DNA of 54,635 nucleotides from an uncultured Chloroflexota bacterium (GTDB taxonomy: Bacteria > Chloroflexota > UBA11872 > UBA12225). The notes below the pieces were generated by a model. That model did not search any database, was not told the origin of the DNA, and worked only from the letters and a program-made list of their open reading frames with translations. A program made the translations under genes and the position numbers. The DNA lies in assembly GCA_902805635.1 (NCBI GenBank), contig CADCTC010000272.1:1-54635 (forward strand), read 5' to 3'. Each line of letters starts with the position of its first letter. Position 1 is the stretch's first letter. This document shows, in pieces, positions 47,483 to 49,114 of this stretch.

Positions 47483-49114
47483 TTAGTGGGCGTGGCGCGA
47501 CTCGTCGATCTCCAGCGTGCGCACGTCGCGCGTGGCGAGGTCGAGGACCCGGACGCGGTGATTGTTGGTGTCGGCGATGAAGAGCTGGCCGCGAGCAACG
47601 GCCAGGCCGCCGGGTTCCGAGAAGCGTGCCTGGGCCGCGGGACCGTCGGCGTATCCGCCGGGGGCGCCTGAGCCGGCGAACGAGCGGACTTCCCGCCGCG
47701 CGAGGTCGTACCGCTTGATGCGATGGTTGTAGGTGTCGGCCAGGAGGACCGACGGACCGTCCGGATCGTCATCCCACACGGCGACCGCGAGTGGGTGCTG
47801 GAGGCGAGCGACGTCACGCGTGCCACCGATGTCGCCGAAGTCGAACAGCCCGGCACCGAGCAGCGTGGAGACGTTGCCCGAATGCAGGTCGATCGCCCGC
47901 AAGGCGCTGGTCTCGCTGTCCGCGACATAGAGCGTCTTGCCGGCGCGGTCGAGCGCCAGGCCGGAGGGTTGGGCGAAGCACGCGGACTCCCGTGGACCGT
48001 CCACCAGCGCCTCGCGGCCCGTGCCAGCGAACGGGAGGATCGCGCCCGCGCGGAGATCCATGACCCAGATCTGATGCGTGCCGGCCATGGCGACGAATAG
48101 CAGGCCCGCGTCGTCATGCAGATCGACGTGCGAGCCTGCTTCGGTCGACGGACCGGCGTTGGGATCGGGCAGGAAGGCGAGGTCCCAAGGGCTGGAGAGC
48201 GGCACGTCGCGCGCGGCGCTGCCGCCGGGTGGAACCTCGCCGGCGGTGACGAAGCTGCGCGCCTGCTTGCCCGTGCCGGCGATTGTCGTGACGATGCCGC
48301 CTTCCGGACTGAGGCGGCGGATGGCGTGGTTCTCGGTGTCGGCGATATACATGACGCCGGTGCGCGAATCGAGCGCGATCCCCTGCGGCCAGTTGAAGCG
48401 CGCCTGGTCGGGAGGACCATCCACCAGCCCCGGCTCAGGGCCGCCGCCGATGTGGTGAACGGCGCCGTCCTGGACGCCGAGGCCCATAACGACGAGCCGG
48501 TGGTGGTTGCTGTCAGCGATGACGATGTGGCCGCGCCCGCGCTCGTCCACCGCGACCTTGCCGGGGAACGCGAGTGGCCCGGCCGTTTCCGGGGCTGTGA
48601 CCGCCGCGGCGCCGGCCGGACCAAGATCGAGTGGCTGGCGGTGCAGCAGGCCCTGCCCGTCGAACTCGGCGAGCATCTGCTCTACCACTGGGATGAGGCG
48701 CTCGGCCTCGAACTCACCCTCGTGGCGGGCGATGACCTTGCCGCGCGGATGGACGAACATGAGCGTTGGCCAGGCGCGGCAGGCGTAGGCGCCCCAGACG
48801 CGGAAGTCGTGGTCGTTGACCACCGGGTGGTGGATGCCGTGGCGGCGCACCGCCTGGGCCACCGCCTCGGTGGCGCGTTCCTCCGGGAACTTGGCTGAGT
48901 GCACGCCGATGACGGCGACCGTGTCCGGAAATCGGACTTCGAGCTCCCGCAACTGCGGGAGGATGTGAAGACAGTTAATTCAGCAAAAAGTCCAGAAGTC
49001 CAGGACCACCAGCTTGCCGCGCAGGTCGGCCAGCGTCAGGGGCCGGTTGGTATTCACCCATTCGGCCCCTGACGGGAAGTCGGGAGCGTTGACCGCGCCT
49101 GCAAACTTTGTCAC
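47483..49114 (-). CDS. NHL-repeat thioredoxin-like selenoprotein (NHLRC2 type) with in-frame UGA
   Basis: 543 residues if TGA at 48980-48982 is read as selenocysteine (residue 45). Thioredoxin-like domain (about 1-150): LADLRGKLVVLDFWTFC-Sec-INCLHILPQL, then VAVIGVHSAKFPEERAT, HPVVNDHDFRVWGAYACR and the cis-Pro loop AWPTLMFVHPRG. The NHL beta-propeller follows (about 190-540) with repeats such as GIALDSRTGVMYIADTENHA, GLALDRAGKTLYVADSET and GLAVARGQLFIADTNNHRVR. The family motif is CCINC; here the second Cys is Sec. Start GTG 49114 is fixed by an upstream in-frame TAG. Frame is open for about 500 codons after the UGA. A stem-loop right after it fits a bacterial SECIS. Gene callers would begin near TTG 48952. 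Confidence 0.85.
48944..48961 (-). promoter_or_regulatory. Candidate bacterial SECIS hairpin
   Basis: On the coding (minus) strand the message is CUCCCGC-AGUU-GCGGGAG: a perfect 7-bp stem with an AGUU tetraloop. Its first base is the 19th after the UGA codon and the loop begins 26 nt after it. Known bacterial SECIS elements lie within the coding region immediately after UGA, with the apical loop 16-37 nt away and a G in the first two loop bases, as here (second base G). Function is inferred from position and shape. Confidence 0.7.

Follow-up and report, generated by a model that had tools for sequence, protein, structure and literature searches.

An in-frame UGA followed by a conserved SECIS-like hairpin predicts a selenoprotein of the NHLRC2/SOQ1 type in Chloroflexota and other bacteria

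A stretch of 54,635 nucleotides from an uncultured Chloroflexota bacterium, here called the window, carries on its minus strand a long reading frame that is interrupted at the active site of the encoded protein. The frame runs from GTG 49114 to a stop at 47483, and its sole internal stop is a TGA at 48982–48980, codon 45 of 543. Does this UGA end a gene, or is it read through, and if so as which amino acid? A sequence-only reading had proposed selenocysteine (Sec) in a protein joining a thioredoxin-like (Trx) domain to an NHL propeller. Retranslation agrees with it on the single interruption and on the residues that border it, LDFWTFC before and INCLHILPQL after the UGA. GTG 49114 is the most upstream start, since an in-frame TAG lies four codons 5′ of it. 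We put at about 94% the reading that this is a Trx-NHL gene of the NHLRC2/SOQ1 type whose conserved UGA, with the hairpin behind it, would be translated as Sec by way of SelB. The gene, its UGA, the conservation of both, the covariation of the hairpin and the genes for SelA, SelB and SelD are all seen directly in the DNA. The features of the locus are as follows.

47483–49114, minus strand: Trx-NHL protein gene, predicted selenoprotein of 543 residues with one UGA read through
48980–48982, minus strand: in-frame UGA, residue 45, predicted Sec, aligned with the middle Cys of CCINC
48971–48985, minus strand: active-site codons C44-U45-I46-N47-C48 (CUINC)
48944–48961, minus strand: predicted bacterial SECIS hairpin, a 7-bp stem with an AGUU loop 25 nt past the UGA
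48734–49018, minus strand: thioredoxin-like domain, residues 33–127, Pfam Thioredoxin_8 at 43.7 bits (cut-off 27)
47510–48574, minus strand: NHL beta-propeller, residues about 181–535, from Pfam NHL (117.5 bits), homologues and the model
47483–48952, minus strand: shortened 489-aa ORF of ordinary gene calling, whose TTG start overlaps the hairpin loop and which is without the redox motif

Ordinary gene calling cuts the protein short. The expected loss of about 54 N-terminal residues is borne out by database entry P0002, which holds the window gene as a 489-residue protein starting 3′ of the UGA. When the UGA is read through, the product matches SOQ1 (7djj) with 363 bits over residues 7–529 and human NHLRC2 (6gc1) with 355 bits over residues 8–535, so that its description as a 543-residue Trx-NHL protein of the NHLRC2 type stands. 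Both alignments put the UGA opposite the middle Cys of CCINC, as the sequence-only reading had placed it; the position can be refined to the first Cys of the CxxC pair. An AlphaFold2 model built from 34 alignment rows has a mean pLDDT of 92.8, contains both the Trx-like and the NHL domain, and superimposes on SOQ1 7djk with TM scores of 0.87/0.92 and on NHLRC2 6gc1 with 0.84–0.85. A Trx domain followed by an NHL propeller is thus the predicted fold, with high confidence.

The two domains are common to the window protein, its bacterial Cys homologues, human NHLRC2 and the lumenal domains of plant SOQ1 (7djj, 7djk). At the position of the UGA, NHLRC2 has Cys90, within a motif numbered 89–93 in the published structure. 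Compared with the CC(I/V)NC motif of NHLRC2 and SOQ1 (PMC6107167), the window sequence C-UGA-I-N-C keeps four of the five residues and has the predicted Sec for the middle Cys. Animal NHLRC2 has a C-terminal beta domain that the window protein is without. SOQ1 has a HAD domain, a membrane helix and a Cys, whereas the window protein has neither HAD domain nor helix and a UGA in place of the Cys; no Pfam HAD domain was found in the 543-residue frame, which opens at the Trx part. Neither the beta domain nor the HAD domain with its helix is common to the whole NHLRC2/SOQ1 group. In the NHLRC2 crystal structure, CCINC sits in the interdomain cleft, close to the propeller (PMC6107167).

The surroundings of the gene offer little guidance. 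Among 17 loci compared, a ketoacyl synthase cluster recurs at 6, a lipoprotein-like ORF at 6 and a MaoC-like cluster at 5; a conserved operon was rejected, the neighbourhood being kept only a short way and saying little about function. On the minus strand of the window itself, DUF5069 ORFs at 50676–51029 and 52916–53383 flank a MaoC-like ORF (51119–51565) and a ketoacyl-synthase ORF (51630–52886).

The simplest explanation of the UGA is that it is a true stop, leaving a broken or split relic that would yield its NHL part alone, by initiation at an internal start. Such starts do exist, and gene callers use them. Against this explanation, the UGA recurs at the same codon. A homologue (E < 1e-60) was found in 24 of the 41 genomes of the class, and each of the 24 has one TGA, placed in the motif; the TGA is thus not confined to one strain, which would have told against Sec, and no Cys form was found in these 41 genomes at the same threshold. 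A Cys-form query against a sample of 400 genomes of the phylum gave 83 matches: 58 with at least one in-frame TGA (counting G228, whose TGA lies outside the motif region), 24 free of stops (in two of which, G247 and G397, the match does not cover the motif) and one with TAG only. Likewise, a DNA pattern scan of named genome contigs for FWx[FY]C-UGA-INC codons returned at least 119 stretches; 115 of the 119 listed are read into the same protein context; L147, L152, L163 and L204, which lie in short unrelated frames, were dropped.

The active-site codon was read in the loci that were fetched, by a search admitting Cys or a stop and no other residue. Among the matches listed it is TGA at 170 places, TGC at 16 and TGT at 6. 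After removal of three short proteins discussed below (L053, L056, L057) and of the spurious L152, 166 UGA places remain, 24 from the class, 115 from the pattern scan (among the matches listed) and 27 from the phylum; some genomes were fetched twice, and the 166 places represent 135 distinct 66-nt contexts. At 145 of the 166 places no further stop appears within 380 codons past the UGA; at 19 the locus runs out before any stop is met, and at 2 (L174, L184) a stop comes sooner. With the same UGA repeated in so many genomes, sequencing error was rejected.

The protein database presents the other form of the same site. Among the best 120 of at least 7999 homologues, 80 proteins contain the motif, and every one of them has Cys where Sec is predicted; of the 40 without the motif, 36 start no more than about 25 residues past the UGA position, as does P0002. 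Residue 45 is accordingly occupied in homologues either by Cys or by a UGA codon, the two states that the sequence-only reading had anticipated. Cys at this site is encoded in 22 genomic genes (16 TGC, 6 TGT), a set that is incomplete in that the motif search missed L238 (FWTAGCINC). Directly before the site, 164 of 166 UGA genes encode Cys and the other 2 Gly; among the 22 Cys genes the numbers are 18 and 4. The first Cys of CCINC can therefore be lost, which fits the second Cys as the attacking residue of a UxxC/CxxC pair, although the search required the second and third Cys, so that loss of either could not show up. Sec likely replaces the middle Cys of CCINC, with which the CxxC pair begins, to give a UxxC protein.

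Selection before the UGA bears on the same alternative. Over the 36 codons upstream of the UGA, pN is lower than pS in all 36 pairs of nine genes, which implies that the N-terminal half is translated and kept; by these substitution counts, the sequence ahead of the UGA is under selection as well as that behind it. Purifying selection ahead of a stop, together with a UGA that occupies this active-site codon in every one of the 24 class homologues and across 135 distinct contexts overall, makes the relic hardly credible, and a read-through UGA is the reading that we keep.

If the UGA specifies Sec, a bacterial SECIS element is expected just behind it. The sequence-only reading had described a 7-bp stem with an AGUU loop beginning 18 nt past the UGA, and this was found as described: a 5′ arm at 48961–48955 (CUCCCGC), the loop at 48954–48951 and a 3′ arm at 48950–48944 (GCGGGAG), with 25 nt from the UGA to the loop. 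The 28-nt hairpin folds at −13.5 kcal/mol (z −3.75; 1 of 200 shuffles as good), and the 50 nt from the UGA at −16.1 kcal/mol (z −2.63; 2 of 200). The bacterial SECIS model as given in PMC13188914 has a loop of 3–9 nt with G in one of its first two positions, a stem of 4–16 bp, 16–37 nt from UGA to loop and a minimum free energy of −7.5 kcal/mol or lower; the window hairpin fits it on each count, with its 4-nt AGUU loop, 7 bp, 25 nt and −13.5 kcal/mol. A hairpin in one gene alone is modest evidence, and conservation across genomes is what decides. When codons for LPQLRE were drawn at random from the usage of 13 long window ORFs, a 7-bp stem arose in 1.3% of draws with Watson-Crick pairs and in 1.7% with GU pairs admitted. 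A chance hairpin forced by the coding sequence was thus a candidate at 1–2% per gene; it is ruled out by the conservation and by the slid and Cys-gene controls that follow.

Of 128 distinct UGA sequences (among the matches listed), 96 have a perfect 7-bp stem with a 4-nt loop at the corresponding position, whereas the same stem slid by 1–3 nt is perfect in 0–6 of the 128, and the perfect stem occurs in none of the 22 Cys genes. The 128 include the spurious L152, and among the 127 genuine sequences 31 have no perfect stem at this place, many of them with a shifted or different hairpin and a few with a weak one. By eye, such other hairpins include a GUU loop one base later in Thermomicrobium, CCAGAGC-UGGAC-GCUCUGG in NC10, and elsewhere stems with a bulged U. 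When the stem may lie anywhere in range, one of at least 7 bp is found in 112 of 135 UGA contexts as against 2 of 22 Cys genes. Over 36 nt, 130 of 135 UGA contexts and 11 of 22 Cys contexts are predicted to fold at −7.5 kcal/mol or lower, so that a loose SECIS rule passes some Cys genes.

Covariation was examined in 88 aligned UGA rows out of 98 distinct sequences, 10 with another loop position being left out. In these rows 95.0% of cells pair, compared with 84.3% after shuffling; 60 cells are changed on both sides, compared with 18.3; and the covariation score is 0.351, compared with 0.160. None of 500 shuffles was as high on any of these three measures, though kinship among the aligned rows inflates tests of this kind. 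The further pair types in the rows exceed all but 3 of the 500 shuffles, and the number of stem pairs changed on both sides, 4 of 7, was reached by 133 of the 500 and is not unusual. Compensatory changes include C-G to U-A at the base of the stem, U-A to C-G or G-C at the third pair and G-C to C-G at the sixth. RNAalifold predicts 6 of the 7 pairs from the 88 rows. The 22 Cys rows keep 44% of pairs, with no excess over shuffles.

Codon choice in the loop follows the same division. The Leu codon there is TTG in 122 of 127 UGA sequences as against 7 of the 21 Cys sequences with Leu at this position, while TTG makes up 7% of the Leu codons in the 13 window ORFs; CAG-TTG is present in 114 of 128 UGA and 3 of 22 Cys sequences. 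The sequence-only reading had tied its proposal to hairpins conserved in relatives, and in the sequences compared UGA genes do keep the hairpin, with compensatory changes, and Cys genes do not. Two Cys forms, L258 and L259 (family f21), keep CAGTTG and 6 of the 7 stem pairs, and may carry a decayed SECIS left by a change from Sec to Cys.

Alternatively, the UGA could be read as Cys or Trp, through an altered code or a suppressor tRNA, and the homologous residue is indeed Cys. However, UGA terminates 5 of 17 long ORFs taken from the window (not all of them proven genes), a hairpin linked to the UGA and conserved with compensatory changes has no place in such a reading, and the genome encodes proteins of the Sec pathway. 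In the window genome (G000), an assembly of 6.1 Mb in 327 contigs with 89% completeness and 5.4% contamination, selA scores 554 bits, selB 341 bits and two selD genes 358 and 355 bits, all above curated cut-offs. Both selD genes (L015 on contig C55, L016 on C127) themselves hold a UGA at the active site, in SNCAG-U-ASK and SSSAG-U-ASK. Reading as Cys or Trp is thus highly improbable, and Sec remains the assignment that we follow. By eye, GGGUCC-rich possible hairpins come after each selD UGA, and they do not share the AGUU loop. A fusion in the second selD gene was considered and dropped, as nothing recognisable by eye was seen in the 447-codon open frame upstream.

The sequence-only reading had pointed to selA, selB, selC and selD as the genes to look for, and the search bears it out for three of them; selC is represented by its 3′ half. 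A full tRNA-Sec was not found in the window genome, where the model search stayed below cut-off and ARAGORN reads the candidates as other tRNAs, and a relative's tRNA-Sec used as query matched only through its positions 33–94. This 3′ half (L108, contig C253, 78083–78143) lies inside a contig, and may be the remnant of an attachment site of an integrated element. In the class, 21 of the 24 genomes with the gene have a tRNA-Sec match of at least 71 bits, the exceptions being G000, G001 and G031; model matches of about 50 bits in class genomes are likely tRNA-Ser. Two relatives, G002 and G009, have a whole tRNA-Sec gene with anticodon UCA by ARAGORN. Of 59 further phylum genomes carrying one form or the other, 50 have a match to the tRNA, as have 22 of 30 genomes from which named loci come; the genomes without a match include 6 UGA-form ones in the first set and 8 in the second. 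As a discriminator between the Sec and Cys forms, tRNA-Sec proved useless, since 20 of 22 Cys-form genomes read also have it. SelB was found in 16 of 18 genomes tried, and was not found in G240 (Cys form) and G004 (UGA form). The former, a genome of one contig with the Cys form FWTAGCINC, has neither a SelB nor a tRNA-Sec match. Conservation of the UGA, covariation of the hairpin and the machinery together support the original proposal that this UGA would encode Sec.

The UGA form is not limited to one lineage. The NCBI labels of 115 listed pattern copies are Chloroflexota (82), Thermomicrobiota (10), Rokuibacteriota (6), Methylomirabilota (4), Acidobacteriota, Actinomycetota, Armatimonadota and Planctomycetota (2 each), Nitrospirota (1) and Bacillota (1), with 3 unplaced. 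UGA copies thus stand under at least 10 NCBI phylum labels, a few of them from genomes already counted; most labelled copies are metagenome bins, for which a single phylum label may be wrong. Two carriers have strain names that imply a culture, Thermosporothrix hazakensis ATCC BAA-1881 (L190), in which SelB was found, and Thermomicrobium sp. CFH 73360 (L166), whose genome has both tRNA-Sec and SelB. Three homologues from the phylum, L232, L236 and L254, are reported with two in-frame TGA each, the second of which is possibly a normal stop or a second Sec.

A tree was made with the Sec/Cys column masked from 115 of 199 de-duplicated rows (20 Cys rows from loci, up to 26 chosen Sec loci and the rest at random), with at least 380 residues past the site required of rows from loci. 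It needs at least 16 changes of label, 11 of which are forced by well-supported branches, and the Cys proteins P0004 and P0005 are nested in the window's own Sec clade. Interchange between Sec and Cys is, on this tree, frequent in the Trx-NHL family.

UxxC selenoproteins of the thioredoxin fold are a well-known kind. Those listed in PMC13188914 (Trx, Prx-like and 'Redoxin family protein') have Sec for the first Cys of CxxC and a bacterial SECIS just past the UGA, as the window gene does. The window family differs from them in its fusion to an NHL propeller and in the extra Cys before Sec (C-U-I-N-C). Is the family, then, already known under another name? It is possible, if doubtful, that it has been catalogued with its NHL part unremarked, as 'Redoxin family protein' or in some other broad Trx-like or Prx-like bin. 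A table in a 2026 review of 119 prokaryotic selenoprotein families has a row 'Redoxin family protein' with PF08534, UxxC and HEU0032618.1 (PMC13188914), and a 2008 ocean study has a row 'Prx-like 3' with pfam08534 (e-value > 0.001), UxxC and 68 sequences (PMC2398784); from their table descriptions, the two may perhaps be the same. Many full-length Cys homologues among the best 120 of at least 7999 carry PF08534, two are named 'redoxin domain-containing protein', and the presence of SAR202 bacteria among the carriers of the UGA form also counts towards such an overlap. Against it, the window protein itself scores 23.8 bits with PF08534, under the cut-off of 26.6, and reaches the cut-off of no model in NCBIfam release 20.0. 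Neither NHL nor NHLRC2 is named in any of the 119 rows of the review table (PMC13188914), and 'nhl' does not occur in the main texts of the papers searched for it. Full-text literature searches for NHL or NHLRC2 selenoproteins and for CUINC or UINC, judged partly by title, gave nothing on point. The statement of the sequence-only reading that it knew of no described Sec member of this family is therefore upheld as far as the review table goes, and is qualified by the 'Redoxin family protein' entry, which could overlap. A widespread Trx-NHL selenoprotein family that is apparently undescribed is the account that we find fairly probable.

A separate protein came to light in three genomes of the same class. 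L053, L056 and L057 (from G020, G022 and G016; family f4) encode a short Trx-like protein in a frame of 194–228 codons, with a lipoprotein-like start LSACGQ, the motif YG-UGA-INC and then a CC-GGUCU-GG hairpin, the loop of which we take to resemble that of E. coli fdhF. At E 1e-60, these three genomes yielded no Trx-NHL match. The protein is possibly a second UxxC selenoprotein, and was excluded from the family counts.

The production of the Trx-NHL protein can be pictured along the SelD/SelA/SelB route established for bacterial selenoproteins. SelD would supply selenophosphate, SelA would charge tRNA-Sec, and SelB, docked on the hairpin, would bring the Sec-tRNA to the UGA. In the product, Cys44-Sec45-Ile-Asn-Cys48 would open the first helix of the thioredoxin fold and lie next to the NHL propeller. 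By analogy with general thioredoxin chemistry, the UxxC pair would attack through the selenolate of Sec45 and resolve through the thiol of Cys48, and the cleft may receive a single, specific oxidised partner held there by the propeller. The protein could then act as a dedicated thiol-disulphide (selenenylsulphide) oxidoreductase, probably a reductase. Because no signal peptide is evident by eye in the window protein, a cytoplasmic location is probable. The insertion of Sec, the catalytic roles and the location are what we infer from the genomic comparison.

The eukaryotic relatives lend weight to the question of what this family does. NHLRC2 is essential in mice, and variants in it cause FINCA disease in children; in 2018, functional reports were limited to mammalian and plant members and the function was called unknown (PMC6107167). 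A target of SOQ1 is described as undergoing a DTT-insensitive change (PMC6107167), which weakens a redox role of the plant protein.

Sec is normally kept where its chemistry matters. For this reason, Sec at one Cys throughout a lineage argues that these proteins are redox enzymes and names the attacking atom. We lean, at somewhat better than even odds, towards an ancient, widespread and undescribed 'Seleno-NHLRC2', found under at least 10 phylum labels, in which at least 11 to 16 swaps mark the middle Cys of CCINC, Cys90 of human NHLRC2, as the attacking atom of a redox enzyme. Automatic annotation cuts the catalytic motif off members of the Trx-NHL family. The two carriers with culture-implying names make the Sec reading testable. 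The position of the predicted Sec points to the reactive Cys of NHLRC2 and SOQ1. Our analysis predicts a selenium-based redox enzyme in these bacteria, and would thereby mark the probable reactive atom in NHLRC2.
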